IMG/VR virus record: IMGVR_UViG_3300032334_001923
Span: 1 to 64,000 of that record
DNA length: 64,000 bases
Source of the DNA: a virus
Strand: one strand, 5' to 3'
Below the pieces are notes generated by a model, which had not been told where the DNA came from, made no database searches, and saw nothing but the letters and a program-made list of their open reading frames with translations. Position numbers and translations under genes: made by a program. Numbering within the stretch: the stretch's first letter is position 1; each line of letters begins with the position of its first letter. Below, one piece after another: positions 3,073 through 59,044 of the stretch.

Positions 3073-5184
3073 ATGCCAGTCACATTTTCAAGTATAGGAG
3101 TCACATCCAGAGATTATAAATACATTAATAACTCTGTTAAGGTAAAGGATTCAGTTTTCTCAGGAGAGGAGATCCTTCTCTTCGAGGATAATGTTTTCAC
3201 TGGTAGAAGATTTTACCCTTCTGAGCAGGGGTTAAGCTCCCCCAACATCTGGATGACATTTATGAAGAGATCTAGAATTATGTGGTACTATAATACCTAT
3301 AATTCTAATGCCGAATCTCCCATATGGTTTAGAGCTGTTACTGTGATGCAGGGAAACGTTGTACTGGGATATGAAACTTTTAGTAAAAGACATGTTCTCC
3401 TAGAAAGGCCTCTCTCAAGTTTCAATTTTTCTGCCGTTCGTACGGCCTGTGTGGATTGGGTTCAAAACATATTCGACAATGGAGGAAGACGTGATAATAA
3501 CTTTTCGCTCTATATTCAGCTCTATATTCCGTGTAACGGTCTTATTGAACCTCCACATATTGCTTCACTGGTTAACACCTCTTATCAGGATCTCTCCCCA
3601 ACTTGGGAGGCTGTGGTTTCCTATTCTTCCCACTATACCAGATGGTACAATTGGGGTAACTTAACATCATTCAATGGTATATTTTACCATTGGCAACCTA
3701 GGATATCTAGCCTAGGTCCTGCTTCTTTCTTCGGTTCAATTTATAAATACATTGATAGTGATGTTGGTGGTGGGAATGGTCTATTATGGGGAAGGGATTA
3801 CTCTACATATTCACCATTTACACTTTGGATATCATGGTGGCAGTGGTTTAGTAATCTTTTTGAAGAGGTGGATCTTTGGGATTTTTTAGGTGCAAACTTA
3901 TATCTGGAGGAGAAAGGCAGAATTTTTAAAAAACCGATTTCCCCAATTAGAGGATTCAAGTACGAGTATCCAAATAGACGCACCCTTTATGGAGGAGGAC
4001 AGTATCCACAAATATTTGGCAGCGTTACTCTAGTTCATAACAACTGGAATATATTTTCATTGGATTGTCCGCAGCTTGGCAATCCTGCTCTTGGTACTAT
4101 TTGGAATTTCACGCAAGATTCTAAGCAGGGTAGATCTTATAATAATCTAAATTACGAGCCAGTTAGCAACTACCAAAAGCTCACTTATAGAATGACACAG
4201 TCTCCTGATGTCATCACGGTAAAACAGGCAACGACTTCATCGGGAGGCCCAAATTATGCTTGGGAGGTGATTGACAGTCGGGCTAATAAGAATTATCTCC
4301 CCCATGATCCCTTTAATTTAAACGCCAATTACCAAAACGGTTATAGCGCCGACAACCGCTATAGTTATGGAGGAGGTCTAAATCTAACACCATACTCTGC
4401 AGCTTGTTTTATTGTTCAATTATGTGGTGATATAGATATCAATCAGCTTAATACTCTCCTTAATGAATCAGCTGAGGCCTACTCGGGACACTTGCCTCAA
4501 ATAACAAACCTCTCTCCGAGTATTCTATATGGATTTGTGGTTAGTGCGGAGTACTATGATCTAAATAGTCTTCTGGATGTGTTAAACACTATAGTTCTGC
4601 CCAATCTAAACGGAGTAAGAATATGGCAGGGTTACTACTTTAAACTGGCTCTTTTTCCAGACAAAGCCACATCTTTGGTTTACACCCTACCTGCCGAGGT
4701 TTCTAAATCTTTATTGGGTGGAGACCCAGGTGTTAATAGTAGATCACATATTCTCGGAGCTCTCTTAACTTTCAAAGACGAGAGAATGACCGTCCCAATG
4801 TGGACTTATTCAAGATTAGCTTATCCATCTAAAGCTCCGATGCAGAATTTTTCTAATCTGAATTCAGCAGAGATCAGACTAGGTAATCTAGTTGGTGGTT
4901 ATATTGGGTTACCTATAAACGATAAAAGAGGTTTTTTTAACAAAATGAGACCGGGTAATGTTGAGATGCGATTCTGCACTTTTAAGCCCAATTGGTATAC
5001 ATCTTCAACAAATATGAATTCAGAATCTCCCTTTGATCAAAATCGTAATGAATTCGGAAGACTGGCAGATAAAAAACTCATTTTAAAAAGATATGGAAAA
5101 AATCTAACTTTCCATGTGGTTCTTGATAAAAGTCCCTCTGATGTACTTCTACCGCAAAGTGTTGAAGTCTACTATCCTGTATAG
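3073..5184 (+). CDS. Large virion appendage protein, copy 2 of a tandem pair
   Basis: This 703-residue protein is the tandem paralogue of the preceding gene and starts 18 bases after it. The two align over their whole length through the shared blocks listed there. They differ most in the middle (about residues 195-265 and 310-380) and around residues 480-520. Such a pattern, with a conserved frame and variable loops, is typical of structural proteins with different surface-binding parts. The pair could form a hetero-oligomer or act at successive positions of one appendage. No enzymatic motif is visible. Confidence 0.6.
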   Translation: MPVTFSSIGVTSRDYKYINNSVKVKDSVFSGEEILLFEDNVFTGRRFYPSEQGLSSPNIWMTFMKRSRIMWYYNTYNSNAESPIWFRAVTVMQGNVVLGYETFSKRHVLLERPLSSFNFSAVRTACVDWVQNIFDNGGRRDNNFSLYIQLYIPCNGLIEPPHIASLVNTSYQDLSPTWEAVVSYSSHYTRWYNWGNLTSFNGIFYHWQPRISSLGPASFFGSIYKYIDSDVGGGNGLLWGRDYSTYSPFTLWISWWQWFSNLFEEVDLWDFLGANLYLEEKGRIFKKPISPIRGFKYEYPNRRTLYGGGQYPQIFGSVTLVHNNWNIFSLDCPQLGNPALGTIWNFTQDSKQGRSYNNLNYEPVSNYQKLTYRMTQSPDVITVKQATTSSGGPNYAWEVIDSRANKNYLPHDPFNLNANYQNGYSADNRYSYGGGLNLTPYSAACFIVQLCGDIDINQLNTLLNESAEAYSGHLPQITNLSPSILYGFVVSAEYYDLNSLLDVLNTIVLPNLNGVRIWQGYYFKLALFPDKATSLVYTLPAEVSKSLLGGDPGVNSRSHILGALLTFKDERMTVPMWTYSRLAYPSKAPMQNFSNLNSAEIRLGNLVGGYIGLPINDKRGFFNKMRPGNVEMRFCTFKPNWYTSSTNMNSESPFDQNRNEFGRLADKKLILKRYGKNLTFHVVLDKSPSDVLLPQSVEVYYPV

Positions 5185-5193
5185 ATATATAGG
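5184..5193 (+). promoter_or_regulatory. Probable late promoter (GATATATAGG)
   Basis: The motif begins on the last base of the preceding stop codon. It matches the GATATATA element found before many structural genes in this window. It would start a short transcript ending at the terminator at 5277-5330. Confidence 0.5.
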
Positions 5194-5196
5194 ACA

Positions 5197-5330
5197 ATGC
5201 GCAACTCATCATACATTATATCTATGTGGCGCGGTAAATGAAGCTTCGACCTTCGAAATACAAAGTGGCTTCGATAAACGGGGTTTCGATCTGACTTTAC
5301 AACCAGTCTCCCCGTTATTTTTTTTTTTTG
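5197..5330 (+). ncRNA. Candidate short transcript (small RNA or micro-ORF pair)
   Basis: This intergenic stretch has its own late-type promoter at 5184 and a strong terminator at its end, so a transcript of roughly 130 bases is expected. It also holds two tiny ORFs joined by an ATGA overlap: 5197-5241 (MRNSSYIISMWRGK) and 5238-5294 (MKLRPSKYKVASINGVSI). The second runs into the 5' arm of the terminator. Neither peptide is recognisable. A small RNA, a leader peptide pair or chance are all possible. Confidence 0.35.
5277..5330 (+). terminator. Rho-independent terminator
   Basis: AACGGGG (5277-5283) pairs with CCCCGTT (5310-5316) across a 26-base loop. ATTT and a long T-run reaching 5329 follow. 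It separates the short unit from the S74 gene, whose own promoter starts immediately after. Confidence 0.75.
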
Positions 5331-5338
5331 ATATATAG
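5330..5338 (+). promoter_or_regulatory. Probable late promoter (GATATATAG)
   Basis: The motif directly follows the terminator T-run and lies 15 bases before the ATG at 5354 of the S74 tip gene. Placement right after a terminator supports a promoter role. Confidence 0.6.
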
Positions 5339-5353
5339 TTAAATTGATATAAA

Positions 5354-5941: not shown

Positions 5942-5990
5942 ACCCCGAAATCTTTACGTTTTTTATCTCTATAAAAGATAAAAGCAAAAG

Positions 5991-6284: not shown

Positions 6285-6290
6285 TAATCG

Positions 6291-7274: not shown

Positions 7275-7275
7275 G

Positions 7276-8495: not shown

Positions 8496-8505
8496 GATAT
8501 ATAAG
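8496..8505 (+). promoter_or_regulatory. Probable late promoter (GATATATAAG)
   Basis: It lies in the 51-base gap between the heptosyltransferase and the next large structural gene, 18 bases before its ATG. It matches the repeated late motif. Confidence 0.6.
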
Positions 8506-13690: not shown

Positions 13691-13700
13691 GATATATACT
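13691..13700 (+). promoter_or_regulatory. Probable late promoter (GATATATACT)
   Basis: It sits in the 77-base gap between the large terminase and tail sheath genes, 28 bases before the sheath ATG. A small GGTC/GACC hairpin (near 13660) precedes it. Confidence 0.65.
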
Positions 13701-18313: not shown

Positions 18314-18323
18314 TTATATAATG
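18314..18323 (+). promoter_or_regulatory. Possible late promoter (TTATATAATG)
   Basis: This variant of the late motif lies right after the terminator and 20 bases before the next ATG. The G at position 1 is replaced by T, so the match is weaker than at other sites. Confidence 0.4.
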
Positions 18324-19611: not shown

Positions 19612-19621
19612 AATATATACT
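19612..19621 (+). promoter_or_regulatory. Possible late promoter (AATATATACT)
   Basis: It follows the gp51-like stop directly and is 10 bases before the next ATG. It has A instead of G at the first position, and the short spacing makes it a weaker candidate. Confidence 0.4.
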
Positions 19622-21266: not shown

Positions 21267-21317
21267 GAAATAAAAAAAATATTTCTCTGAAATTTTTTTT
21301 ATTTCGATATTTTATCT

Positions 21318-21326
21318 TATATTTGC
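21318..21326 (+). promoter_or_regulatory. Bacteroidota-type promoter (TATATTTGC) before dCMP deaminase
   Basis: The -7 element TAnnTTTG is perfect, and a T-run at 21293-21300 lies 17 bases upstream as the -33 element. An AT-rich inverted repeat AGAAATA/TATTTCT (21267-21287) before it may end the preceding transcript. The same arrangement precedes three other DNA-metabolism genes. Confidence 0.7.
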
Positions 21327-21971: not shown

Positions 21972-22580
21972 ATGCAATCGAAGGAAAAAAATATTCAAAA
22001 ATTAGCTGAGGATTTTATTGTAAATAAAAGTGATAAGTCTTTTAAAGACCTGTTTGAGAGATTAAAACCAGGAGTGTCTAATCATTGTTTTTTAATTTTA
22101 AAGGACATTGAACTTGCTGAAGACGCTTTTCTTAACACGATGTCCAAGATTTGGACCAAAATAGATCAATATGATTTAGAAAGAGGTAATTTTTCTACGT
22201 GGTGTTATAATATAGCTAGAAACGAATCTCTTTTGCTTATGAAGTCAAGAAAGAGATATTTAAGCCATCAGGATAGCGATTTGGAATTTCTTTCCTCCAA
22301 AAATACTATTGGAAGCTTGGGTGGTTTTTATGTTATTGAAGAGGATCCTAGATACGCATTTTATTCAGAGGAAAATAAAACAGACGAAGTTTACGAATCT
22401 GTTTTGGACGAGATTAGAGCTCTTCCCGAACTTTATAGAGATATAATGATAGATCGAGAAATAAACGGAATGAAATACAAGGATATTGCGGAGAAATACG
22501 ATATTAAAAAGAGATCTATTGCCACAAGGATAAGAAGAGCTAGATGTAGAATCAGGAAGGAGATGGACAAGAAACAATAA
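21972..22580 (+). CDS. ECF-like RNA polymerase sigma factor
   Basis: The 202-residue protein has sigma region 2 (about residues 20-95, with DIELAEDAFLNTMSKIW and FSTWCYNIARNESLLLM) and region 4 (about 145-200, LPELYRDIMIDREING followed by MKYKDIAEKYDIKKRSIATR). Regions 1 and 3 are absent, as in ECF factors. It would direct host RNA polymerase to a subset of phage promoters. It is probably co-transcribed with dCMP deaminase from the host-type promoter, so it may serve a middle class. It is separate from the gp55-like factor at 29816. Which promoter each recognises cannot be read from sequence. Confidence 0.85.
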   Translation: MQSKEKNIQKLAEDFIVNKSDKSFKDLFERLKPGVSNHCFLILKDIELAEDAFLNTMSKIWTKIDQYDLERGNFSTWCYNIARNESLLLMKSRKRYLSHQDSDLEFLSSKNTIGSLGGFYVIEEDPRYAFYSEENKTDEVYESVLDEIRALPELYRDIMIDREINGMKYKDIAEKYDIKKRSIATRIRRARCRIRKEMDKKQ

Positions 22581-23033: not shown

Positions 23034-23840
23034 ATGGACGTTAGACTCTTAAGTGCAAAGTCTGAGATAGAGAGAAAGCTAGAGATTTTTAATGATCGCA
23101 AGTTCACCTTTGAGGAGGGACCTCATATTTATAAATATGACGGAAAAAAATTTGACTCTGTAACAACATTCCTAAAAAAATTTAAAGTTCCCTTCGACAG
23201 GGAATATTGGTCTAAAAAAAAGGCAGAGGAACGTGGTGTCGATCAAGCTGTTATCTTGGAAGAATGGAACACAAAGTCTGTTAAGTCAATGGATGTTGGA
23301 ACCTCGGTACATAAGTACATAGAGGATTTCTGGAGCCAAAGAAATCCGGAAATTCCAGAGGATGTTGACGTAAGGGAAAGAGTTGAGAAATTCATAGATT
23401 TTTATAACAAAAAACTCCACGTATTCCATCCATTAAAATCGGAGCTTAGAGTTTTTTCTAAGAGATGGAGATTGTCTGGTACTATAGACCAGCCTCTTCT
23501 ATTTTGGGATGATAAGTTAGATAAGCCATTTTTGGTTATAGGTGACTGGAAAACCAATGGTGAATTCAAAGATGATCTACATCCTAAAGGGAAATATAAA
23601 AAGCTTCTAAGACCTTTCTCCCATCTTTGGGAGAATCATCACAACGAATATTCTATCCAAATAAGTCTTTATCGTCTAATTCTCGAAGAAGAGGCTAACA
23701 TAGAAACCCAAAGTGGATTCCTCTGTCATATCGGTCCAGACGGTCCTCCTAAACTATACCCTGCAAAAGATCTCAGAGAACCACTAAAGGCTTATCTGGA
23801 GGATAATAGAGTTGAATTTGATATTTTTGATATCTCATAG
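23034..23840 (+). CDS. PD-(D/E)XK (RecB-like) exonuclease
   Basis: The 268-residue protein carries the motifs of RecB-like nucleases: GTSVH (89-93), Glu137, GTID (149-152), GDWK (170-173, with Asp171 and Lys173) and a C-terminal Q-x3-Y (QISLY near residue 210). The fold cuts or resects DNA with two metal ions. It starts 3 bases after the membrane protein gene. It may act in recombination or host DNA breakdown. No helicase or Cas4-type Fe-S cysteine cluster is evident. Confidence 0.85.
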   Translation: MDVRLLSAKSEIERKLEIFNDRKFTFEEGPHIYKYDGKKFDSVTTFLKKFKVPFDREYWSKKKAEERGVDQAVILEEWNTKSVKSMDVGTSVHKYIEDFWSQRNPEIPEDVDVRERVEKFIDFYNKKLHVFHPLKSELRVFSKRWRLSGTIDQPLLFWDDKLDKPFLVIGDWKTNGEFKDDLHPKGKYKKLLRPFSHLWENHHNEYSIQISLYRLILEEEANIETQSGFLCHIGPDGPPKLYPAKDLREPLKAYLEDNRVEFDIFDIS

Positions 23841-23885
23841 AAACAATTTTGAAGAAATAAACTAAAAATATAAAAAGTATAAAAC

Positions 23886-24443: not shown

Positions 24444-24475
24444 AAAAGCTGGATATAAATTGTCCGGCTTTTTTG
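24444..24475 (+). terminator. Rho-independent terminator
   Basis: AAGCTGGA (24446-24453) pairs with TCCGGCTT (24463-24470) with one G-T pair, followed by a run of T. It closes the deaminase-sigma-exonuclease unit. Confidence 0.8.
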
Positions 24476-24490: not shown

Positions 24491-24499
24491 GATATATAG
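24491..24499 (+). promoter_or_regulatory. Probable late promoter (GATATATAG)
   Basis: It lies between the terminator and the ATG at 24517, with 17 bases to the start. It argues for the start at 24517 over an in-frame codon at 24460 that would lie inside the terminator. Confidence 0.6.
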
Positions 24500-26863: not shown

Positions 26864-26873
26864 AATATATACT
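26864..26873 (+). promoter_or_regulatory. Possible late promoter (AATATATACT)
   Basis: The first of two late-type motifs in the 75 bases before the large head protein gene. It has A instead of G in the first position. Confidence 0.35.
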
Positions 26874-26895: not shown

Positions 26896-26905
26896 GATAT
26901 ATAAT
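26896..26905 (+). promoter_or_regulatory. Probable late promoter (GATATATAAT)
   Basis: The second motif, a full match, lies 13 bases before the ATG at 26919. Confidence 0.55.
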
Positions 26906-29710: not shown

Positions 29711-29727
29711 AAATAAACTTCTAATAG

Positions 29728-29757
29728 AGAGAATGCGATAGCATTCTCTTTTTTTTT
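29728..29757 (+). terminator. Rho-independent terminator
   Basis: AGAGAATGC (29728-29736) pairs perfectly with GCATTCTCT (29741-29749) across GATA, followed by a T-run. It lies 17 bases after the stop of the frameshifted frame, which supports that stop as the real gene end. Confidence 0.9.
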
Positions 29758-29815
29758 GAAATATTTCACGTTATTCTGACTAAAATAAAGATCATCCAAA
29801 CTAATAAACTATTCA

Positions 29816-30175
29816 ATGGCAAAAGATTATGTAAAAAACAGCGACCTAATGGCGGCTGTAATAGAATCCAAAAAACAAGGAAAATTAACACCGGATACTA
29901 TAGCTATGTTTACCCTTATGATTCAGGGTATCTCAAAGAAAATGGCTTATAAAGATCCGGAGGATAAGGAGGATTGCATGGCTTTTGCAATGGAAGATCT
30001 CTGTAAATACTGGGACAGATTTAATCCCGAAAAATCAAACAATCCCTTTGCTTATTTCACCCAGATTGCAAAGAATGGATTTGCTAAAGGCTGGAAGAAA
30101 TTACATCCACCTAAGAGTCCTAAAACTATACCGTTCAGTTACATCACGGGTGATGATAATTCATATAACGTTTAG
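29816..30175 (+). CDS. Late transcription sigma factor (gp55-like)
   Basis: The 119-residue protein aligns with T4 gp55: NSDLMAAVIESKK (8-20), DTIAMFTLMIQGISKKM (27-43) and FNPEKSNNPFAYFTQIAKNGF (69-89) parallel the corresponding parts of gp55. gp55 is a very small sigma relative that binds RNA polymerase and recognises the late -10 element TATAAATA. The C-terminal part of gp55 that contacts the sliding clamp is not obvious here. The likely target is the GATATATA element repeated in this window. It follows a terminator and is close to gp4 and portal genes. Confidence 0.85.
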   Translation: MAKDYVKNSDLMAAVIESKKQGKLTPDTIAMFTLMIQGISKKMAYKDPEDKEDCMAFAMEDLCKYWDRFNPEKSNNPFAYFTQIAKNGFAKGWKKLHPPKSPKTIPFSYITGDDNSYNV

Positions 30176-30668: not shown

Positions 30669-31273
30669 TGAAATACTCAGAATCAGCTTTAAAATATAAA
30701 AAGGAGTTCAAAAGTGTCTCGGATCTAGTTTCGGGAACAGATGAGACGTTTAAGAAAAAATACTTCAGAGGAGGAAAATCTGAAAAGGTATTCTCCTCCC
30801 CCTTTATACCAGGTCAAATATATTCGTTCTATTATAACACAGATTCTGAATTAAGCGAAAAAAGACCTTTCATAAACAGAAATCCTATAGTTTTATGTAC
30901 TGACACGTTCCGTAAGAAGGAATACGGAACAGTTCTTAAAGGAATAGATCTGGTAACAGTCCCTCCTCCTTATAAGATTCAGATTCTTTCTAAAATTTAC
31001 GACAGCTTTTCTAATACTATAGAGAGAAACGAGGAGGCTTCTAAAAACGGAGGAGCTATATCACCCATTCAATTGAAAGATAGTCTTTTAGAGAGAGCAT
31101 TAAATGGAACCGGATATAAAAAATCGGTTTTTGGATTCAAAGCTTCGTTTATGCAGGAGATAAAAATTCTGGACCTGGAGGATTGGTATAAGATCCCGTA
31201 TTTGAGGTACTCAGAGATAGAGGGCTTGGATCTCCAGGGGATATATAGCGAGTATGAATCGAAATTAATTTAA
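30668..31273 (+). CDS. Conserved-looking virion assembly protein of unknown function
   Basis: The 201-residue protein is not recognised with certainty. It has GQIYSFYYNTDSELS (about 48-62), RNPIVLCTDTF, GTVLKGIDLVTVPPPYKIQIL (about 97-117) and a C-terminal WYKIPYLRYSEIEGLDLQGI. Its position between head completion nuclease and portal genes corresponds to the head and baseplate completion region of T4. It shares one base with the gp4-like gene. Confidence 0.5.
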   Translation: MKYSESALKYKKEFKSVSDLVSGTDETFKKKYFRGGKSEKVFSSPFIPGQIYSFYYNTDSELSEKRPFINRNPIVLCTDTFRKKEYGTVLKGIDLVTVPPPYKIQILSKIYDSFSNTIERNEEASKNGGAISPIQLKDSLLERALNGTGYKKSVFGFKASFMQEIKILDLEDWYKIPYLRYSEIEGLDLQGIYSEYESKLI

Positions 31274-32930: not shown

Positions 32931-34556
32931 ATGGCAGGATTTTTAGACGCATTTAAACCAAATCAGTCCGCACTAGGAAACATAATTCGAAACCTTGGAA
33001 AAATATCCAAGTTTGGAATGGAGTATGATGATATGGTTGTGAGGAACTCTCAAGCTATTGGTAAAACAGAGTCAGCTTTCTTTAATCAGCAAGGAACCGG
33101 ATTCACGGAAAATGACGCTTTTTACTGGACCCTATCATATCAAGACACTAGAGTTAGAAAATACATAGCTTACTTTGATAAAGATTATATCGAAAAAAGA
33201 AATTTTCTTAGAAAATTTTCTCTTAACGGTGAGATAGAGTTTATCATAGATACTATTACCGACGAATCTATTTCTTATGATGATAGAAATTTTTTCGCCA
33301 GACCTTCTTTTATAAATCTTCAGGATCTCAAAGAAAGAACTAAAGATAAAATAGAGGAGAATTTCAATAGACTCTATAATGTGTTTGGCTTCCAGAATTC
33401 TATATCAGCATGGCAGCTATTCAAGCAATTCTTAGTTGATGGATTTTTAGCATTTGAAATAATCTATGACAATAAAGGCAAGGAAATAATCGGTTTTAAA
33501 GAACTGGATGCAACCTCACTTCAGCCTGCTGTTGAGAAAGTTGGTGAAAATGAATATAAACAGTTTTGGATTCAATATCCAAAAAATCCTCAAATGACTA
33601 GAAAGCTTACCAATGAGCAAGTCATTTATATCTCATATGCTAAGGGTAATTCTGTATCAAGAGTAAGCTATCTGGAGAGATTGGTTAGATCTTATAACAT
33701 TTTAAGAATAATGGAAAACTCAAGAGTTATCTGGAATGTTATGAATGCCTCCTATAGGTTAAAGTTTATAATCCCGACGGGAACCCAATCCCCACAGAAA
33801 GCAATGCAGACTTTGGGCCAGCTTATGTCTCATTATAAAGAGGAAATATCTCTTAATGACACATCGGGGGAATTAACGGTAAACGGTAAGCCTAAGGTTC
33901 AATTTTATAAGAATTATTTATTTCCTGAACAAAATGGACAATCCCCTCAGGTTGAGTCTTTAAATCCAAGTGGTCCGGATTTTAACGTAATGGAGAACGT
34001 TTTATACTTCTTCAATAAACTTAAAATGGACTCTAAAATACCTTATGCTCGATTTGCATCAAGAGGAGCTACTCCTATAAATTATCAGATAAGTATAGAT
34101 GCTCTGGAAAGAGATGAAATTAGATTTGAGAAATTTTTAAGAAGGCTTAGATCTGTTTTCCAGGAGATATTGGTTAAACCTCTATACATTCAGATGTGTT
34201 TAGATTACCCTGAACTTGCTAAAGATAGAAGCTTTAAAGTTAATCTTGGTCTTCAATTCTACAAGGATAGTCAATTCGAAGAAATCGTTGAACTTTCAAA
34301 TTACAAAAAAAGAACTGAGTTTATAGCAGGACTTTTAGAATTAAAAATGAAAGTTGGCGAAGAGGAAAAAACATACTTCGATAATGATTTCTTGATTCAA
34401 AGGTTCTTAGGATTAACCCCTGATCAGTTTAAGCTGAATGAGGAGTATAAAAAAAGAGAAGAGAAAGAAGCAGAAAAAGCATCTAAGGAAGAAGGTGGAG
34501 GAGAAGGTGAAGAGGGAGGCGAAGGTGAAGGAGGCGCAGAGGCAGTAACTTTATAA
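32931..34556 (+). CDS. Portal vertex protein (gp20-like), copy 2
   Basis: The 541-residue paralogue aligns with copy 1 end to end: WQLFKQFLVDGFLAFEIIYD, GFKELDATSLQPAVEK, VIYISYAKGNSVSRVSYLER, VIWNVMNASYRLKFIIPTGT and a Gly/Glu-rich tail ending EAVTL, the same last five residues as copy 1. Both keep all portal landmarks, so neither looks decayed. Differences cluster near residues 345-395, where copy 1 reads RFHQPDGGNTSAYANAAEG and copy 2 reads RFASRGATPINYQ. Confidence 0.88.
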   Translation: MAGFLDAFKPNQSALGNIIRNLGKISKFGMEYDDMVVRNSQAIGKTESAFFNQQGTGFTENDAFYWTLSYQDTRVRKYIAYFDKDYIEKRNFLRKFSLNGEIEFIIDTITDESISYDDRNFFARPSFINLQDLKERTKDKIEENFNRLYNVFGFQNSISAWQLFKQFLVDGFLAFEIIYDNKGKEIIGFKELDATSLQPAVEKVGENEYKQFWIQYPKNPQMTRKLTNEQVIYISYAKGNSVSRVSYLERLVRSYNILRIMENSRVIWNVMNASYRLKFIIPTGTQSPQKAMQTLGQLMSHYKEEISLNDTSGELTVNGKPKVQFYKNYLFPEQNGQSPQVESLNPSGPDFNVMENVLYFFNKLKMDSKIPYARFASRGATPINYQISIDALERDEIRFEKFLRRLRSVFQEILVKPLYIQMCLDYPELAKDRSFKVNLGLQFYKDSQFEEIVELSNYKKRTEFIAGLLELKMKVGEEEKTYFDNDFLIQRFLGLTPDQFKLNEEYKKREEKEAEKASKEEGGGEGEEGGEGEGGAEAVTL

Positions 34557-35626: not shown

Positions 35627-35651
35627 TTTTTTTTCATCCGAGATTATTTCT

Positions 35652-35660
35652 TACATTTGC
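35652..35660 (+). promoter_or_regulatory. Bacteroidota-type promoter (TACATTTGC) before DNA ligase
   Basis: A perfect TAnnTTTG element has an eight-T run (35627-35634) exactly 17 bases upstream and a start codon 18 bases downstream. Confidence 0.72.
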
Positions 35661-35677: not shown

Positions 35678-37009
35678 ATGATTCAGGAAATAAGAGTATT
35701 AAGAAAAATCGAATCCCTTACAGGCGAAGGATCTCAAAAATCAAAGCAGAATTTAATTAATGAGTCTTTAACCCCAGAGATGGAGTATATCTTAGATGTC
35801 TGTTTTAATCCCTTTGTCACAACTAAACTCCATAAAATATCCTTTCGGGAAACCCCAAAGGAAGGTAATCCTAATCTCTTCAATGATTTTAAAACATTGA
35901 TAGAGGATCTTAAAAAAGCTCCAGCAGCAAACGATCTTTTAAGAGAAAGAGCTCAGACAATTATATCCTATCGTTTATCTGAGGATGATCAAGAGGATAC
36001 AGATCTTAGAAAAAATCTAATGAAGGTTTTGACCAAAAGAATGAATATAGGCATCGGTGCTAAACTTATAAACAAAGCAGTTGGAAAAGAGCTTATCCCT
36101 GATCCATCACTTATGTTGGCAACTGATGATCACCAAACAATAGAGGCTTGGAATAAGATTTACTGTGAAGAAAAATATGACGGGGTCAGAGTAATTGCCC
36201 TTTATAAAAACGGAGAGTTTTCATATTTTACTAGAGCCTTTAATGAGCTTGATTCTTCATGTTTTCCTAAGATTACTTTTGATCTAAAAACATGTATGAT
36301 AAACTCAGGACTAAAGGGTGACTGGTTTTTTGATGGTGAATTAACAGATCTTAATAGAAAATCTGTTAGTGGAAAGGTTACTCAAATACTTAAAGGAACT
36401 GTTGATGAGAAAATAGAGACTGGCATGCTATTTAATGTATTCGACTTTGAAGAAGCAGTAACTTTAGAAAAAGGAAGTGGAGTAATAGAATATAGAACAC
36501 GCAGAAGCACATTAGAAAATGTACTTAAACATCTTGATGAAAATTCCCCTGTTAAATTGGCTCAGATGTGGGAATTGGAAGATTCCACTGCAGTTAGTCT
36601 TGTTTACAAGGAAATAGTAAAAATAGGAGGCGAGGGCGTTATATGTAAAAATGACTCAGTTTATGAATGCAAAAGATCTAAGTCTTGGGTTAAATTCAAA
36701 GAAGTTAACGAGTGCGATCTTGAAGTAACTGGTTGGTATCCAGGAGAGGGCAAAAGAGAAGGAATGATAGGAGGATTTATGATGACAGACTCTTCTAAAA
36801 CTATGACGGTTAGGGTTGGTGCAGGATTCAGCGATTTGGATCTACAGACCCTTAGCAAAGATCCAGATTCTCATATAGGTAAAATTGCTGCTGTTCAATA
36901 CAACGTGACTATCACGGATAAGCACGGGAATAGATCTTTATTTTTACCTCGCTTTGTAGATATAAGAAATGATAAAACTCAAGCAGACGATCTTTCCTCT
37001 CTTTTTTAG
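35678..37009 (+). CDS. ATP-dependent DNA ligase (gp30-like)
   Basis: The 443-residue protein has the nucleotidyltransferase motif EKYDGVR (165-171) with the adenylated Lys166. Further motifs are FDGEL (motif III, about 219-223), GGEGVICKN (motif IV region, about 318-326) and SWVKFK (motif V, about 337-342). An OB-fold region with GWYPGEGKREGMIGGF follows. It seals nicks in phage replication and repair. The 130-residue N-terminal helical domain resembles that of T4 ligase. It heads a replication block driven by the host-type promoter. Confidence 0.93.
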   Translation: MIQEIRVLRKIESLTGEGSQKSKQNLINESLTPEMEYILDVCFNPFVTTKLHKISFRETPKEGNPNLFNDFKTLIEDLKKAPAANDLLRERAQTIISYRLSEDDQEDTDLRKNLMKVLTKRMNIGIGAKLINKAVGKELIPDPSLMLATDDHQTIEAWNKIYCEEKYDGVRVIALYKNGEFSYFTRAFNELDSSCFPKITFDLKTCMINSGLKGDWFFDGELTDLNRKSVSGKVTQILKGTVDEKIETGMLFNVFDFEEAVTLEKGSGVIEYRTRRSTLENVLKHLDENSPVKLAQMWELEDSTAVSLVYKEIVKIGGEGVICKNDSVYECKRSKSWVKFKEVNECDLEVTGWYPGEGKREGMIGGFMMTDSSKTMTVRVGAGFSDLDLQTLSKDPDSHIGKIAAVQYNVTITDKHGNRSLFLPRFVDIRNDKTQADDLSSLF

Positions 37010-37042
37010 AAACAACCAATAAAATAATCTCTAGAAATTAAT

Positions 37043-37987
37043 ATGATACAAGAACTTTTAACCGAAAAACTCAGACCTAAAGAGCTGAGACATATGATAC
37101 TCCCGTCGAGGATATCTAATCTTTTTAGTCAAGGATTAGGACACAATGTTCTTCTAAGCGGACCTCCAGGATGCGGAAAAACAACCCTTGCTAAAATCCT
37201 TGCTGCACCCTTCCCTAGTATATTTATAAACGTTTCTGACGAAAGCTCTGTTGAAACAATCAGGGTTAAGATTAACGATTTCTGTTCCACCATATCTGTT
37301 TTGGATAATAAATCGTCTAAGAAAATAGTTATTTTAGACGAGTTTGACGGGGCTTCGGATCAATTCTATAAAGCACTAAGAGGTACGATAGAAAAGTTCG
37401 CAGGCAACACTAGATTCATTGCTACGTGCAATTATATCAACAAGGTTCCTGATGCAATCCAGAGCAGATTTGAGTTAGTTGATTTTAATCCAGTTAGCTC
37501 GGAAGAGGAAGATTTACTAAAGGACGAATGGAACAGGAGGATAAAACTAATATTAGGAAAACTCAGTATTCAAATAGATGATGATTCCCTTAATGAATTC
37601 CAGAAATCCTACTACCCAGATTTTAGATCAGCTTTAAATAAAGTTCAAAGCTGGATGCTTGAAGGGGTTAAGGAAGTCGATAGCAACAAGATTAAAGAAT
37701 TAGGCTGGTCGTACGAGAACTTATATAATTTGATTATCACATCTAAAGACCCTGTTAAAAACTACGAAGAGATCGTCGGTGAATATCAAGGTAAGGTTGA
37801 TGAGGTTATGTCAGCTTTAGGTGATGAGTTTATAAAATGGATCATTAAAAACAAGCCAGCACTTAAAAAGATAATTCCTGGAGTTATTGTTTTAGTGGCA
37901 GATCACCAATCACAGAGAACACAAGTAATAGATCCTATGGTCTCCCTACTTTCTCTAATATTTCAGATACAAAAACTTGTTGACTAA
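37043..37987 (+). CDS. Sliding clamp loader large subunit (gp44-like)
   Basis: The 314-residue AAA+ protein has Walker A GPPGCGKTT (40-48, Lys46), Walker B KKIVILDEFDGAS (about 93-105), sensor 1 RFIATCNYINKVP and the arginine finger motif SRFE. It loads the sliding clamp onto primed DNA and is the counterpart of T4 gp44. It follows the ligase by 33 bases. In T4 gp45-dependent late transcription links replication to gp55; a clamp gene is not visible in this window. Confidence 0.92.
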   Translation: MIQELLTEKLRPKELRHMILPSRISNLFSQGLGHNVLLSGPPGCGKTTLAKILAAPFPSIFINVSDESSVETIRVKINDFCSTISVLDNKSSKKIVILDEFDGASDQFYKALRGTIEKFAGNTRFIATCNYINKVPDAIQSRFELVDFNPVSSEEEDLLKDEWNRRIKLILGKLSIQIDDDSLNEFQKSYYPDFRSALNKVQSWMLEGVKEVDSNKIKELGWSYENLYNLIITSKDPVKNYEEIVGEYQGKVDEVMSALGDEFIKWIIKNKPALKKIIPGVIVLVADHQSQRTQVIDPMVSLLSLIFQIQKLVD

Positions 37988-39701: not shown

Positions 39702-40121
39702 ATGCAACTTTTCGATATAGTAAAATCAATATTTTCAAAAAAACCAAAAGATTGGGATGCTGTTGGTGCAATAGATAAATCTAGGAATTTCTTTATGATT
39801 AACAGAATCATGAGTATACAATTCCCAATACAAGCTAATCAATTTAACAGATTAAAGGTTATTCCTGCCCCTGTAGTTGACTGGTGGCACGATACCCTTT
39901 CAATAAAGTTTACCAAATCGCCCACGTGGATTTACACTAAGACCAAGAAAAAAGAATCAGAAAAATCAGAATGTATTAAAATTTCTGAGGGTGTAGAGGA
40001 TTTTATTAGAGATAGATATAGGGTATCCAAGAGAGATCTAGAAGACCTTAAAAAATTCTATCCTTCAAAATATGCCTCTTGGGTCAAGGATGTATCGGAA
40101 CAATTAGGACTTCAAAAGTAG
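39702..40121 (+). CDS. Possible clamp loader small subunit (gp62-like)
   Basis: The 139-residue protein follows the nuclease by 1 base and lies close to the gp44-like gene. It has an N-terminal DWDAVGAIDKSRNFFMINR, IQFPIQANQFNRL (about 40-52), PAPVVDWWHDTL and WIYTKTKKK. A helical region ends ASWVKDVSEQLG. Its size, helical nature and place suggest a gp62-type subunit, but resemblance to T4 gp62 itself is faint. Confidence 0.4.
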   Translation: MQLFDIVKSIFSKKPKDWDAVGAIDKSRNFFMINRIMSIQFPIQANQFNRLKVIPAPVVDWWHDTLSIKFTKSPTWIYTKTKKKESEKSECIKISEGVEDFIRDRYRVSKRDLEDLKKFYPSKYASWVKDVSEQLGLQK

Positions 40122-40135
40122 GAATATATAGAACA

Positions 40136-40693
40136 ATGGAAAAGAAAAATCACAAACTAATAGATAAGGTTATTTCCGGCCTTGACTGGGACTCCATATT
40201 AGAAGTAAATAAATGCTTTAAAATAGGAGTTGGAGAAGGGACTAATGCAATCCCGGGGTTAAAAAGGAAGATCTTTAGCGATGATCTAACCAAATCAGAT
40301 CTAAAGGCTGAGCTTAAAGCTCTTTTAAAGCATGTTTTAGACAATAATTTACCTGAACTATACTATGGTCCTTGGATGATCTATTGGATGGATGCAGAGT
40401 GGGTCTTTGAGGCTCAAGATCAGGATGGCGAAGATGATGACGATCAGGACGGTATGGAAATAAACATCACTTTAGAGATAGATTCTAACCTTGAGGTTAT
40501 CTACTCACCTCAAAGAATATTAGTGTTAGATCCCGTTGAAAAGGAGGGAATTAGAGCTGAAAAAACTGGATCTGAAGTGGATCAGCTTGAGGCTATGTTA
40601 AAAAAAGCCTTAGAATCTGAAAAATATGAGCTGGCTTCTAAAATAAAAGATCTCATAGGACTACAAAAAGGGGACTCCTCTGAAGATAAATAG
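40136..40693 (+). CDS. Protein with C-terminal UVR-like motif
   Basis: The 185-residue protein starts at the ATG at 40136; an upstream in-frame codon at 40079 lies inside the preceding gene. A late-type GGAATATATAG lies 5 bases before the start. The middle holds an acidic run (DQDGEDDDDQDGM). The C-terminus LEAMLKKALESEKYELASKI followed by KDLIG matches the UVR motif, a helical hairpin used by UvrB/UvrC and by Clp adaptors for protein contacts. No catalytic part is visible. Confidence 0.55.
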   Translation: MEKKNHKLIDKVISGLDWDSILEVNKCFKIGVGEGTNAIPGLKRKIFSDDLTKSDLKAELKALLKHVLDNNLPELYYGPWMIYWMDAEWVFEAQDQDGEDDDDQDGMEINITLEIDSNLEVIYSPQRILVLDPVEKEGIRAEKTGSEVDQLEAMLKKALESEKYELASKIKDLIGLQKGDSSEDK

Positions 40694-42137: not shown

Positions 42138-42161
42138 TTTTTTTATTTCGGGAATACTGTT

Positions 42162-42170
42162 TACTTTTGT
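42162..42170 (+). promoter_or_regulatory. Bacteroidota-type promoter (TACTTTTGT) before exonuclease
   Basis: The TAnnTTTG element has a seven-T run at 42138-42144 exactly 17 bases upstream, and the start codon is 14 bases downstream. Confidence 0.7.
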
Positions 42171-42927: not shown

Positions 42928-42937
42928 GATATATACA
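42928..42937 (+). promoter_or_regulatory. Probable late promoter (GATATATACA), after a weak terminator
   Basis: The motif directly follows a T-run (42921-42927) and a small CCC-TAAA-GGG hairpin that may be a weak terminator. It lies 16 bases before the GTG start at 42954 and opens the head gene cluster. Confidence 0.55.
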
Positions 42938-42953: not shown

Positions 42954-43751
42954 GTGGATAAAGTTTTAGATTATTCTAGTTACCTGAACATCTCGGAAAG
43001 AGAGGAATCCCCATTTTATAATGATTCTTTATGTCCCAAATTATGGGTAAAGAATAATCAAGAAGACGGAAACCCCGCTTGGACTTTAGACGGGAGAGCA
43101 TCTAGAAAAATAGAAAAGATTGCAAAAGAATTCTTTTCGCATTTTTCGAGCTTGCTAAAGCAAAAAGACATCTCAGATATTCAAATAACAGGGGATCTTG
43201 CTAATTTCAGTCATACCCCCAATTCTAATCTGGATGTACACGTTCTCGTGGATCTAGATGGTATGGACGATCTGGATGCTCAGGATCTTAAAAACGAGAT
43301 AGCTTTTTTAAAATCAAACTGGGATCTAAAAAATTCCAAAAAGATAAGAGGAAGAGACGTTGATTTCTACATTCAAAATGCGAAAGATCCTCATGATTCA
43401 TCAGGTCTTTATTCTGTTCTAAACGGTGAGTGGATTAAAGCTCCTTCTCTAGAATCTCCTTCTTTTGATGAAAGAGACGTGGCTAAAAAGTATGATGCTA
43501 TTGCTCACGAGATAGACTCTCTAGAAACCCAAATAGAAGTAACCAACTCACCGGATAGAGTTAAATTCCTTAGAGATAGAGCCACTGAACTTAAAATAAA
43601 AATCCAACAAATGAGAAAGGATGCAATAACAAAGAGTGGGCAACCCTCAGTTGGCTCAAGTATATTCAAGATGCTTAGAAAAGAAGGATATATAGAAAAA
43701 TTGATAGATGTTCTATCTAATTCCTACGATAAAATTTATAAAGAAGACTAA
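42954..43751 (+). CDS. Nucleotidyltransferase-fold protein
   Basis: The 265-residue protein starts at GTG. ITGDLANFSHTPNSNLDVHVLVD (about 73-95) has the layout of a nucleotidyltransferase active site, with G(D/S) followed by SDLD-like NLDVHV. IRGRDVDFYIQ supplies a third acidic position. The family appears in tailed phages with unknown substrate. In place of the canonical GS the sequence has GD, and the usual first Asp is Asn (SNLDV), so catalysis is uncertain. It begins the head cluster and sits 2 bases before the next gene. Confidence 0.55.
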   Translation: MDKVLDYSSYLNISEREESPFYNDSLCPKLWVKNNQEDGNPAWTLDGRASRKIEKIAKEFFSHFSSLLKQKDISDIQITGDLANFSHTPNSNLDVHVLVDLDGMDDLDAQDLKNEIAFLKSNWDLKNSKKIRGRDVDFYIQNAKDPHDSSGLYSVLNGEWIKAPSLESPSFDERDVAKKYDAIAHEIDSLETQIEVTNSPDRVKFLRDRATELKIKIQQMRKDAITKSGQPSVGSSIFKMLRKEGYIEKLIDVLSNSYDKIYKED

Positions 43752-46386: not shown

Positions 46387-46396
46387 GATATATAAG
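46387..46396 (+). promoter_or_regulatory. Probable late promoter (GATATATAAG)
   Basis: The motif lies 25 bases before the protease-scaffold ATG at 46422, in a 61-base gap. Confidence 0.62.
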
Positions 46397-46421: not shown

Positions 46422-48422
46422 ATGACAAGAACTCAGACAAATACACTAAACGAACAAATGGTCTTCATCCTGGAAAAACAGGATTATGTCCTTGAGTCTA
46501 AAAAGGGCGAGGGCAATGACTATGTTCTGGAGGGTATAGCAGCGGTATTCGGTCAGGAGAACAACAATCATAGAATCTATGAGGAAAACGAATATCTCCC
46601 GCACCTAGATTACCTTAAGGAGAAGATAGCTCAAAAGAGACTTCTAGGAGAGCTAGATCACCCAGAAAAATTCGATGTTTCTCTTAAGAACATCTCTCAC
46701 ATTATCACATCTCTTGATTACGACAAGTCTTCAAGAACCCTTAAGATTAAGGTTAAGCTTTTAGATACTCCAGCAGGAGATATAGCTAGAAAGCTAGTTG
46801 ATGCGGGAGTTCCTCTTTCGATATCATCTAGAGCAGCAGGATCTGTTGGAAACGATAAGAAGGTTCAGATCAAGAAGATCTTTACTTATGATCTAGTAGC
46901 AGATCCGGGATTTCAGGATGCTCAGCTTAAAAGAGTTTACGAAAGCGCAGGCTACTCTGAAGAGCAATTCGACACCTATAAAAAACAAAGCATAGTAAAT
47001 AGTCTTGAGTGTTTAAACGAATCTTTAGGTATAAAAAATGAATCTACCTTGAAGATATATAAAGTTGAAAACACAGAGGAGTTTAACAGCATTATAAAAC
47101 AAACAGATAAAAATAAGAAAATCCTTATGGAGAATAACGAATTTGTTACTGCAGAAGAACTAAATCAATATTCAGTTTTCCTGAAGAAGGAAATGGATTC
47201 GATGAGATCTACGATAGCAGACATAAAACAACAAAAAACCGCTCTTACAGAGTCTAACGAAGGTGAAGGTTCTACGGAAGAGTTTGAAGCTAGAATCGCT
47301 AAGCTTGAGAAGTATTCAGGATATCTAGCAGAGAATCTAGAAAACGCTATCAAATACGGAGATTATCTAGCAGAAAATCTTGACAAGAGCATCAACTACA
47401 GTAAATACTTAGCTGAGAATCTTGATAAGAATATTTCTTATTCTAAATATATTGCTGAGAACGTAGACAAGTCTATTTCTTACACTGAATATGTTGCTGA
47501 AAGCGTGGATCAGAATATCGAGTATTCTAAATACATCGCAGAAAAACTTGATCAAAATATTCAATATTCAGAGTACCTAGCAGAAAACGTTGATAAAGGA
47601 ATTCAATATTCAGAGTACCTAGCAGAAAACGTTGATAAAAACATTGCTTATTCTGAGTACATCGGAGAAAATCTTGAAAAAGGAATAGCTTATACTGAAT
47701 ACGTTGCTGAAAAACTTAACAATGGAATTGATTACACAGAATACGTTGCTGAGAATCTGAACAAATCTATCGAATATACCGATTACCTAGCAGAAAATCT
47801 AAATAAAGGAATTGATTACACAGAATACGTTGCTGAGAAACTTAACAAAGGTATCGCTTATTCAGAGTATATCGCAGAATCTCTTGCTAGTGGAAAATTA
47901 GCTAAACAAGAGACTTCTTCATTAAGAGAAAGTGCAGAATTTAGCGCTATTTCAGATCTTAACGAATCAGGATTTGCAGGAAACTATGCAGATCTTACAT
48001 CAAAAATCGACTCACTAATAGAATCAGTTAAAACCCAAAAAACTGAGAGTAATATAAACGAGGCAGCTAAGAGATTAGCTCCAGCCGAAACACAAAAGGC
48101 AGAAGTTCTTAACGAATCAGAGAACACTAACAAATCAGGACTTAAATTCATTGATGAAATGCCTGAAGAATACGCTCCGGTTTGGGAGTCTCTAAACGAA
48201 GCACACAAGCAATCAATCATTGCTCAGTCTAACTTCTACAGATTAGAAACCCCTTATCAGATCAAAAACTTCTGGTCAACACGCCAACTTGGAGCTAAAC
48301 CGGTTGGAGTTCAAAAATTAGAAGAGAACGAAAACATCTCAGAAAGCGCTAAAGCTCAAGCTTACTCTAACGAGTATATGCAGCACATCGCTTCTGCACT
48401 GGAAAAGAAATTCCAAAAATAA
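46422..48422 (+). CDS. Prohead protease-scaffold fusion (gp21/gp22-like)
   Basis: The 666-residue protein begins with a T4 gp21-type prohead protease: VLEGIAAVFGQENNNHRIY (36-54), LLGELDHPEKF (74-84, probable catalytic His80) and LVDAGVPLSISSRAAGSV (125-142, catalytic Ser in SISSR). Residues about 300-490 are some 13-14 repeats of 14 residues, YLAENLDKSINYSK-like, expected to form a long coiled coil as in scaffold cores. The C-terminal 170 residues carry several LNES, INEA and LNEA sites for self-processing. In T4, protease and scaffold are separate genes; here they are in one frame. It directly precedes the major capsid protein. Confidence 0.88.
   Translation: MTRTQTNTLNEQMVFILEKQDYVLESKKGEGNDYVLEGIAAVFGQENNNHRIYEENEYLPHLDYLKEKIAQKRLLGELDHPEKFDVSLKNISHIITSLDYDKSSRTLKIKVKLLDTPAGDIARKLVDAGVPLSISSRAAGSVGNDKKVQIKKIFTYDLVADPGFQDAQLKRVYESAGYSEEQFDTYKKQSIVNSLECLNESLGIKNESTLKIYKVENTEEFNSIIKQTDKNKKILMENNEFVTAEELNQYSVFLKKEMDSMRSTIADIKQQKTALTESNEGEGSTEEFEARIAKLEKYSGYLAENLENAIKYGDYLAENLDKSINYSKYLAENLDKNISYSKYIAENVDKSISYTEYVAESVDQNIEYSKYIAEKLDQNIQYSEYLAENVDKGIQYSEYLAENVDKNIAYSEYIGENLEKGIAYTEYVAEKLNNGIDYTEYVAENLNKSIEYTDYLAENLNKGIDYTEYVAEKLNKGIAYSEYIAESLASGKLAKQETSSLRESAEFSAISDLNESGFAGNYADLTSKIDSLIESVKTQKTESNINEAAKRLAPAETQKAEVLNESENTNKSGLKFIDEMPEEYAPVWESLNEAHKQSIIAQSNFYRLETPYQIKNFWSTRQLGAKPVGVQKLEENENISESAKAQAYSNEYMQHIASALEKKFQK
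47310..47890 (+). repeat. 42-base tandem coding repeat (14-residue coiled-coil unit)
   Basis: About 13 full 42-base units plus a partial one encode (Y)(L/I/V)AE(N/K)(L/V)(D/N)(K/Q)xIxY(S/T)x. Two neighbouring units are identical over 39 bases (47559-47597 and 47601-47639), and another long match recurs 84 bases apart (around 47725 and 47809). This points to recent unit gain by unequal exchange. Confidence 0.92.
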
Positions 48423-50194: not shown

Positions 50195-50227
50195 AAAAAA
50201 CCCTAGGTTTACCTAGGGTTTTTTTTG
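50195..50227 (+). terminator. Rho-independent terminator after the capsid gene
   Basis: ACCCTAGGT pairs with ACCTAGGGT (about 50200-50219) as a nearly perfect stem with a 2-base loop, flanked by six A and eight T. Confidence 0.92.
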
Positions 50228-50258: not shown

Positions 50259-50268
50259 GATATATACA
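50259..50268 (+). promoter_or_regulatory. Probable late promoter (GATATATACA)
   Basis: It lies between the capsid terminator and the ATG at 50290, 21 bases before the start. Confidence 0.62.
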
Positions 50269-55118: not shown

Positions 55119-55150
55119 AAAGGAGAAATCTAACAGGTTTCTCCTTTTTT
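55119..55150 (+). terminator. Rho-independent terminator whose T-run overlaps a promoter
   Basis: AAAGGAGAAA (55119-55128) pairs with TTTCTCCTTT (55138-55147) across a 9-base loop, followed by further T. The same T-run is 16 bases upstream of the TAnnTTTG element of the next promoter. Confidence 0.85.
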
Positions 55151-55166
55151 ATTGCCTGAAATCTTT

Positions 55167-55175
55167 TACTTTTGG
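55167..55175 (+). promoter_or_regulatory. Bacteroidota-type promoter (TACTTTTGG) before nucleotide kinase
   Basis: The TAnnTTTG element lies 16 bases after a T-run (55145-55150) and 24 bases before the ATG at 55200. It fixes the start of the next gene, since an in-frame TTG at 55152 would lie upstream of the promoter. Confidence 0.68.
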
Positions 55176-55199
55176 AGTAGTATAAAACTAAAAGACATC

Positions 55200-57160: not shown

Positions 57161-57178
57161 ATTTTGTTATTTCTCTTA

Positions 57179-57187
57179 GATATATAG
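57179..57187 (+). promoter_or_regulatory. Probable late promoter (GATATATAG)
   Basis: It lies in the 45-base gap after the asparagine synthetase, 18 bases before the next ATG. Confidence 0.6.
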
Positions 57188-57205
57188 AGAAAATAGTTTT
57201 AACTA

Positions 57206-57844: not shown

Positions 57845-57864
57845 TAACATAAAATATCCAACAT

Positions 57865-58203
57865 ATGAATTTACAAAATATAGCACAAAGAGAAGTTTTA
57901 GATTTTGGACAATTTCTAAAAAAAGTCCATGATTATAACTATAAACCACTTGCACCTTCTACTCAATCTGAGGGAGGTCTTGAAAAATCTGGTCTTTCCA
58001 AAATAAAAAGAGAACCTGCTTATGATCACGTAGGATATGCAGATTCTGTATTTGCTGGACAATCTAAGATCGACGTTCCTGGGGTTAGAATTAATACTGG
58101 GGGTCAGGGTGAAATGGTAGATGCAGCTGGATATGGAACAGCTACATTATTTAACACCAGTGAGTCTCTTCAGGTCTCAATTAAAAGACTTTCTGATTTC
58201 TAA
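57865..58203 (+). CDS. Small uncharacterised late protein
   Basis: The 112-residue protein is unrecognised. Its N-terminus VLDFGQFLKKVHDYNY again shows an aromatic leader-like pattern. The rest is Gly/Ser-rich (VPGVRINTGGQGEMVDAAGYG). It ends 18 bases before a two-way terminator. Confidence 0.45.
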   Translation: MNLQNIAQREVLDFGQFLKKVHDYNYKPLAPSTQSEGGLEKSGLSKIKREPAYDHVGYADSVFAGQSKIDVPGVRINTGGQGEMVDAAGYGTATLFNTSESLQVSIKRLSDF

Positions 58204-58221
58204 TCTAACCTAGATATAAAG

Positions 58222-58251
58222 AAAAAGGTCCAATTTATTGGACCTTTTTTT
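58222..58251. terminator. Bidirectional terminator
   Basis: AAGGTCCAA (58225-58233) pairs with TTGGACCTT (58239-58247), with A-runs on the left and T-runs on the right. It serves the + strand gene ending at 58203 and the - strand gene ending at 58250, which converge here. Confidence 0.85.
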
Positions 58252-58981
58252 ATTGCTCATCTTTGGAGATCACCCCTATAAATTTTTCCTTTGCAATTTT
58301 GTATATTTCCGAATCCTCCTCGAAGTTTTCGTATATCTCGATTACATAGAGAGAAGGTAAAATCCCATTATCTAAATTAAAATCGTTTAATATCTCGTGA
58401 TAGATGTATTCGTAATTTAAGGAGAAGAATGGATTTTTAATATGGATCTTTTTTAGAATGTATATCTCTTTGTCACCATCCTCCGTTTTCATAGTTACCT
58501 GAGATTTAAAGTAGTAGTTTATGAGCTTGTCGGTAACCATGTTTCTGATGATCACTATCCCCGATTTATTTTCCTCTCCTTGCTCAAACTTGGATTGAAT
58601 TCTAAAGATCTTGATCTTAGATTCCTCTCCCTTAAGTATCTCCAGGCATATCTCAGAATACCCATATAAAGTTTCAAGAGATTTTTCTACTATTTCTTCT
58701 ATTGAAGAAGACTCTTCTTTAGTCAGCTCCTTTTTCAGTAGCTTTTCTGTAAAATCAAGATCCTCCTTTTTCAAGAATTTCTTTATCGAATCTATTTTAC
58801 CGCTTTCTTTATATTCATTTAGGGTCTTAACGATCCTTGATACCTCCCTTATTACAGAATAGCAATTTTCCTCGTTTAGATCTTTACTTACGGATTTTAG
58901 ATAATCTAATAAAACATATTCCTTGTGCTCTGGGTCCAAAGGTTCTTTTAAAAACCAAATAGGACTTAATTTCTTCTTCAT
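58250..58981 (-). CDS. Only - strand gene: uncharacterised protein
   Basis: The 243-residue product starts at MKKKLSPIWFLKEPLD; an upstream in-frame codon at 59086 would overlap the divergent gene and its promoter. It is a charged, largely helical protein with a beta-containing C-terminal half (EIYILKKIHIKNPFFSLNYEY, ILPSLYVIEIYENF). No family is recognised. A single gene on the opposite strand, between a shared terminator and a divergent promoter region, looks like an independently regulated or recently inserted cargo gene. An inverted repeat overlies its leader. Confidence 0.6.
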   Translation of the reverse strand: MKKKLSPIWFLKEPLDPEHKEYVLLDYLKSVSKDLNEENCYSVIREVSRIVKTLNEYKESGKIDSIKKFLKKEDLDFTEKLLKKELTKEESSSIEEIVEKSLETLYGYSEICLEILKGEESKIKIFRIQSKFEQGEENKSGIVIIRNMVTDKLINYYFKSQVTMKTEDGDKEIYILKKIHIKNPFFSLNYEYIYHEILNDFNLDNGILPSLYVIEIYENFEEDSEIYKIAKEKFIGVISKDEQ

Positions 58982-58982
58982 C

Positions 58983-59016
58983 CGGTGATTTTTTGTATAT
59001 TCTATATATTTCACCG
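58983..59016. promoter_or_regulatory. Inverted repeat CGGTGA-N22-TCACCG in a divergent region
   Basis: The two arms at 58983-58988 and 59011-59016 bracket an AT-rich centre with TATATA. It lies just upstream of the - strand start codon at 58981, in its leader. It could be an operator for a dimeric repressor or a hairpin affecting translation. Confidence 0.45.
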
Positions 59017-59034
59017 TATAAAAATAAAGGATGG

Positions 59035-59044
59035 GATATATACA
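59035..59044 (+). promoter_or_regulatory. Probable late promoter (GATATATACA)
   Basis: It lies 15 bases before the ATG at 59060 and drives the + strand genes to the right. Confidence 0.6.

Follow-up and report, generated by a model that had tools for sequence, protein, structure and literature searches.

A probable single-element late promoter word, GATATATA, in a large phage record related to Bacteroidota phages and its probable gp55-like reader

The DNA considered here is a stretch of 64,000 nucleotides (the window), that is, the first half of the 127,287-bp virus record IMGVR_UViG_3300032334_001923 of IMG/VR, a record which is itself partial. In this record the 8-base word GATATATA recurs ahead of genes that include those of the tail sheath, head protease, portal, baseplate, tail fibre and endolysin, and a short gene encodes a homologue of gp55 of phage T4. 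The host is inferred from relatives; in the phage collection, megablast found no close DNA relatives of the record. Gene starts were called with simple rules. Conservation was followed in 80 IMG/VR relatives collected via the portal protein (portals about 66–87% identical) and, for the rest of the window outside the portal-region loci, in 8 relatives. The copies of the word and one variant are as follows, named according to the interpretation argued below.

5184..5191, + strand: GATATATA running into the stop codon of 3073-5184, its function doubtful; next called gene more than 160 nt away
5330..5337, + strand: probable late promoter GATATATA, past a T-run, 24 nt before the ATG of the tail-fibre-like gene 5354; no 5354 orthologue in the stretches fetched
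8496..8503, + strand: late promoter GATATATA before 8524 (head-closure-like protein unit), start codon 28 nt past G; 8/8 orthologues
13691..13698, + strand: late promoter GATATATA before the tail sheath gene 13729 (phrog_34521, E 3e-120); 8/8 orthologues
19612..19619, + strand: variant AATATATA before the tape-measure-like gene 19632; AATATATA in 6/6 orthologues, never GATATATA
24491..24498, + strand: late promoter GATATATA before 24517, preceded by a hairpin terminator at 24444-24472; 27/28 orthologues
26896..26903, + strand: late promoter GATATATA before 26919, with a second word, AATATATA, at 26864; 49/49 orthologues
31240..31247, + strand: late promoter GATATATA in the 3′ end of the gp2-like gene, 67 nt ahead of the portal gene 31307; 78/80 orthologues
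42928..42935, + strand: late promoter GATATATA before 42954; 24/24 and 4/4 orthologues
43687..43694, + strand: late promoter GATATATA in the 3′ end of 42954, 67 nt ahead of 43754; 5/5 and 5/5 orthologues
46387..46394, + strand: late promoter GATATATA before the head maturation protease gene 46422 (phrog_207, E 8e-40); 8/8 orthologues
47054..47061, + strand: internal GATATATA at codon 211 of gene 46422, with the gene of the major capsid protein downstream; AAG ATA TAT A in 9/9 (own and 8 relatives)
50259..50266, + strand: late promoter GATATATA before 50290, preceded by a 13-bp hairpin terminator at 50195-50224; 8/8 orthologues
57179..57186, + strand: late promoter GATATATA before 57206; 8/8 orthologues
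59035..59042, + strand: late promoter GATATATA before 59060; 8/8 orthologues
61161..61168, + strand: internal GATATATA in gene 60769; CCG ATA TAT A in 9/9 (own and 8 relatives)

First of all, the word is abundant and one-sided. All 15 copies in the window lie on the + strand; shuffles of the whole window gave a mean of 4.2, both strands summed, and never reached 15; over the full record the split is 22 to 0. In the non-coding DNA (7,781 bp, + strand) the word occurs 18 times, whereas 1000 dinucleotide shuffles average 0.47 and do not exceed 4; a comparison with shuffled intergenic DNA was among the checks that an earlier sequence-only reading had proposed. No other intergenic 8-mer is as common, and the next arrangement of its letters reaches 9. 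When 8-mers upstream of genes were counted de novo, GATATATA again ranked top, at 17 of 102 genes where gene bodies predict 0.24; by word, the counts in the own genome were 14 for GATATATA, 3 for GATAAATA and 1 for TATAAATA.

The strand asymmetry also extends into coding DNA and to the relatives. The phage's own coding DNA contains 4 sense and 0 antisense copies, for which synonymous shuffles predict 8.3 and 4.7, and the coding DNA of 26 chosen relative loci contains a single antisense copy against 30.7 ± 5.4. In several whole relative records the strands divide 24/0, 22/0, 1/30 and 1/25. An antisense shortage is also seen in some other AT-rich control words, most strongly in ATATATAG (4 versus 28.7), which shares the ATATATA core. 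The shortage fits selection against misplaced promoters, with a contribution from a general dislike of AT runs.

All 13 testable copies in the window are conserved at the same place in relatives, and most genes inside transcription units have GATATATA upstream in none or few of them. The sequence-only reading had located eleven main sites, each of which carries the exact word, and had missed 31240, 43687, 47054 and 61161, all conserved in relatives. The gap of 13–30 bases to the start codon that it gave, when counted from the motif end, lies at 15–30 for ten of the eleven; at 5184 the next called gene is 162 bases away. Its remark that the motif often follows a terminator applies to a minority of sites: 24491 and 50259 clearly have a hairpin ahead of them, and 18314 has one too. 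Among its weaker forms, 19612 and 26864 are AATATATA, and 18314 is another word, (G)TTATATAAT. The latter (18314-18323) lies past the hairpin terminator and before 18344, is present in 8/8 relatives, and is related to the late word without being identical to it. Genes 40136 and 40698 are intermediate: GATATATA stands ahead of them in some relatives, and AATATATA or nothing in the own phage.

The four copies that the sequence-only reading missed lie inside genes and probably serve as internal late promoters. At 31240 the form G ATA TAT A occurs in 40 of 41 distinct gene tails, where codon usage would predict about 3.1; at 47054 and 61161 the G at the third codon position is constant in all nine sequences. 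In 46422-48422 the head-protease domain is N-terminal in a protein of 666 aa, and the internal word at codon 211 is near the end of this domain; it may provide a separate transcript for the remainder of the protein, perhaps a scaffold. Downstream of the 31240 copy, 31307-32920 and 32931-34556 are adjacent and both match the portal family phrog_213 strongly (E 5e-56 and 1e-64), that is, they are tandem portal-like paralogues.

The anatomy of the sites is simple. Information content is flat from −50 to −1, both at the own sites and in 64 non-redundant relatives, which leaves no second element and no −35 box. Downstream of the word the DNA is AT-rich, with a frequency of A of 0.44–0.72 at +8 to +20 past the G. 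Most start codons lie 23–38 bases past the G; the distance from the word to the start codon varies from 12 to 72 nt. A purine is found 12 bases past the G at 20/20 own sites and in 87% of relatives; since the T4 late word covers −13 to −6 (PMC1524935), this purine adjoins the expected start, and the predicted start is possibly one base nearer here than in T4. At 40123-40136 the own phage has AATATATA 13 bases ahead of the ATG, and relatives have GATATATA 12–13 bases ahead of it; their start would then fall on the ATG itself, which predicts leaderless late mRNAs for this gene.

The candidate reader and the clamp-loader genes of the window are the following.

29816..30175, + strand: gp55-like late sigma factor, 119 aa; phrog_234 E 1.3e-16, phmmer to 7d7c_F E 1e-4, Pfam Sigma70_r2 over cut-off, Foldseek 7d7c_F
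37043..37987, + strand: sliding-clamp loader subunit (gp44-like); phrog_168 E 1e-58
39702..40121, + strand: second clamp-loader subunit (gp62-like, weak); phrog_225 E 5e-4

The homology of the 119-aa protein to gp55, which had been proposed from the sequence alone, is borne out by profile, sequence, Pfam domain and fold. Its predicted structure has a mean pLDDT of 84.9, and the best Foldseek match of the model is 7d7c_F, T4 gp55 itself (TM 0.72, rmsd 1.5 over 97 columns, E 1.3e-3). In T4, pockets formed by N13, L54, R57, F86, H95, Y97 and T99 receive the flipped adenines of −12, −9 and −8 (PMC7892883), the pocket for −9 being shallow and those for −12 and −8 deep. These residues align to N, I, K, F, F, Y and T, that is, four are identical, two are conservative, and H95→F is different. 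The predicted pocket residues of the 119-aa protein include N8, F78, Y80 and T82. The gp55-like gene has no GATATATA upstream in 70/70 relatives, as would be expected if gp55 acts before the late genes. The protein and its relatives share a conserved C-terminal tail, YN[VI]; compared with DNA polymerase in search of a common clamp-binding tail, it differs, the polymerase of the relatives ending in NALF.

On this evidence, the late promoters of this phage very probably have GATATATA as their only core element, which the gp55-like sigma factor would read when bound to the host core RNA polymerase, the late timing being taken from gene function. By analogy with T4, the word would cover about −13 to −6, and RNA would start about 12–13 bases past the G, usually 10–25 bases ahead of the start codon. 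The gp55-like protein, consisting of sigma region 2 only, would open the double strand and take up flipped-out non-template bases; as it lacks region 4, a −35 box would not be needed. Misplaced copies, above all those on the opposite strand, would be selected against. This is in essence what the sequence-only reading had claimed, a T4-like late promoter recognised by a gp55-like protein ahead of mostly structural or late-type genes, and the 8-bp element, the missing −35, the virion and lysis targets, the conservation and the gp55 homologue support it; what had gone unnoticed is the changed base at −9, the reduced gp55, the in-gene sites and, besides a second sigma factor, two further classes of promoter.

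Several points weigh against this interpretation. Because the relatives have common ancestry, the conservation counts are not independent events, though the flanking bases differ widely. The copy at 5184 has no gene close behind it and no independent support. The helix-loop-helix that follows region 2 in T4 is absent from the 119-aa protein in both alignment and model, the chain ending soon past the last aligned T4 position, near 120; T4 gp55 without this element is weakened and needs it for full activity. For gp33, a protein which diverges fast, a search with phrog_254 matched T4 only, the record being partial; for the clamp, the phrog_223 model matched nothing in any related phage record, where this search has no power. 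No single gp55 residue emerges as a clean candidate for setting the −9 letter: the positions of T4 F58 and V107 separate the lineages with T from the others, but the T lineages have common ancestry. Finally, the phage carries a second sigma factor, which could in principle read GATATATA.

This second factor, together with the other two promoter classes, is listed here.

21972..22580, + strand: second phage sigma factor, 202 aa, regions 2 and 4; Pfam Sigma70_r2 E 5e-10 and Sigma70_r4_2 E 9e-11, both over cut-off; phrog_1740
21305..21325, + strand: class E promoter before the dCMP deaminase/second sigma unit; 17/21 distinct orthologue upstreams
35639..35659, + strand: class E promoter before the DNA ligase gene 35678; 30/42 distinct orthologue upstreams
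42149..42169, + strand: class E promoter before the 3′-5′ exonuclease gene 42184; 13/28 distinct orthologue upstreams
23840..23867, + strand: class M promoter before 23886; 10/27 distinct upstreams
29758..29785, + strand: class M promoter GAAA-N18-CTAAAA before the gp55-like gene, preceded by a hairpin terminator at 29726-29751; 22/42 distinct upstreams
37009..37036, + strand: class M promoter before the clamp-loader gene 37043; 12/40 distinct upstreams
60467..60494, + strand: class M-type site before 60501; pattern match only

The gene of the second sigma factor adjoins that of dCMP deaminase, lying behind it, and is conserved in all close relatives checked. If this factor read GATATATA, gp55 would do something else, and the factor is indeed found in the own record, seven close relatives, and the LR, Lak and MaF61 records. 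However, a sigma factor with regions 2 and 4 normally uses two boxes, and GATATATA offers one where GAAA-N18-CTARAA offers two; moreover, NATANATA late words occur together with gp55 in PTm1 and T4, two phages in which the search gave no match to the second sigma family. This possibility is therefore regarded as improbable.

Class M (GAAA-N18-[CG]TARAA) has 4 members in the window, all on the + strand and 34–58 bases ahead of genes; besides the distinct upstreams listed, it occurs in 19/46 of those of the portal gene, and shuffles give about 0.1 in these comparisons. A two-box promoter suits a sigma factor that has region 4, and a one-box promoter suits one that lacks it; from this we infer a pairing in which the second sigma factor is the candidate reader of GAAA-N18-CTARAA. 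Class E consists of a T-tract followed by CG-N11-TAnnTTTG, with 3 members in the window, again on the + strand only, 35–39 bases ahead of genes. TAnnTTTG is a known Bacteroidota promoter box. In 35 non-redundant relatives the fixed-distance CG shows 97/91% conservation; by its sequence class E looks host-like, yet more than a plain host promoter.

A further possibility is that GATATATA is itself an ordinary housekeeping promoter of the Bacteroidota host, or simply an AT-rich leader. The genome is AT-rich and the leaders ahead of start codons are A-rich, which would suit this; but the host-type TAnnTTTG box is nearly absent at GATATATA sites and heads a different gene set, and the word is one-stranded, far above AT-matched shuffles, and present 18 times against 9 for the next word of the same letters, which makes this very unlikely. 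Promoters of the E. coli sigma-70 type were also sought, and their counts were not clearly above shuffles. Just as little credit can be given to an action of the word in RNA or in replication and packaging, for example as a translation enhancer or a strand-polarity signal, which its single strand and nearness to start codons would suit, given that its distance to the start codon varies as stated, that it recurs in genes far from starts, and that MaF61, with genes on both strands, has the equivalent GATAAATA ahead of genes on both.

The interpretation of GATATATA as a gp55-read late promoter can be set beside known systems. The T4 late promoter (gp55/gp33/gp45; PMC2988020, PMC7892883, PMC1524935) likewise has one 8-bp TATA-like element, no −35 box, AT-rich DNA downstream and late genes behind it, and the window likewise encodes a gp55 region-2 homologue and clamp-loader genes. 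The differences are that T4 gp55 has 185 aa with the helix-loop-helix, whereas the protein here has 119 aa without it, and that the T4 word TATAAATA would have been rewritten at −13 (T to G) and at −9 (A to T) with the A at −12 and −8 fixed, so that the strict consensus A at −9 is not found here. An exact A at −9 is, in turn, not strict for T4-type late promoters, as Aeh1 also deviates (PMC2988020). The Aeh1 late word reads CTAAATA from −12 (PMC1524935), and the cyanophages S-PM2 and Syn9 have the late promoter NATAAATA (PMC2984593); both are known natural variants of the T4 word, and the phages concerned have gp55 homologues. They differ at −13 and −12 and keep the A at −9, whereas the own phage keeps the A at −12 and changes −9. 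In summary, GATATATA is classed as a variant that probably acts as T4 late promoters do, a switch of known type in which the spelling has changed.

When upstream words were counted alike in T4 and other phages, the top word of T4 was TATAAATA (12 versus 0.3) and that of the Flavobacterium phage MaF61 was GATAAATA (13 versus 0.2). The Prevotella phage Lak-B3 gave AATAAATA (17) and TATAAATA (10); LR756500 gave AATATATA (13) and GATATATA (9), and AATATATA was also found in LR756502 (26 versus 0.2) and LR756504 (11). In the Tenacibaculum phage PTm1 the words were TATACATA (11) and AATACATA (8), heading the tail sheath, portal and prohead protease genes; the weak signal of the same two words in MA9V-1 (6 and 4) was not relied on. 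All ten phages compared for late words carry a gp55 homologue, and MaF61, PTm1, Lak-B3 and the three LR records thus resemble the own phage in combining it with an enriched NATANATA word ahead of genes. The homologue of MaF61 (L015:4739-5476) has 245 aa, with an insert of about 120 aa between two conserved parts of region 2. Between lineages −13 and −9 vary and the other six letters are constant: the −9 base is A in T4, MaF61 (GATAAATA) and Lak (WATAAATA), T in the own phage and in some huge phages (the LR records, mostly AATATATA), and C in PTm1 (NATACATA). In the open-access literature no earlier report of the late words of MaF61, PTm1, Lak-B3 or the LR phages was found, nor any paper joining late promoter, gp55 and Bacteroidetes; the papers on MA9V-1 and MA9V-2 do not mention promoters.

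Taken together, the three promoter classes suggest, but do not prove, a cascade of host sigma, second phage sigma and gp55. In its full form, the host sigma would read class E and so yield the two-domain sigma, the latter would read class M and yield a minimal gp55 of about 120 aa, and gp55 would read NATANATA, with the −9 letter switched between lineages (A, T, C) while the −12/−8 pockets stay unchanged; this is put forward tentatively, as a possibility somewhat short of an even chance.

In large phages related to Bacteroidota phages, a widespread group with uncharted gene timing, the finding provides a precise late-promoter word, by which late genes can be called in metagenomes. Comparable phages that stand one base apart at −9 form a natural series on how a sigma factor changes its letter preference. 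Moreover, a gp55 smaller than that of T4 would serve to test what the T4 late machinery can do without.

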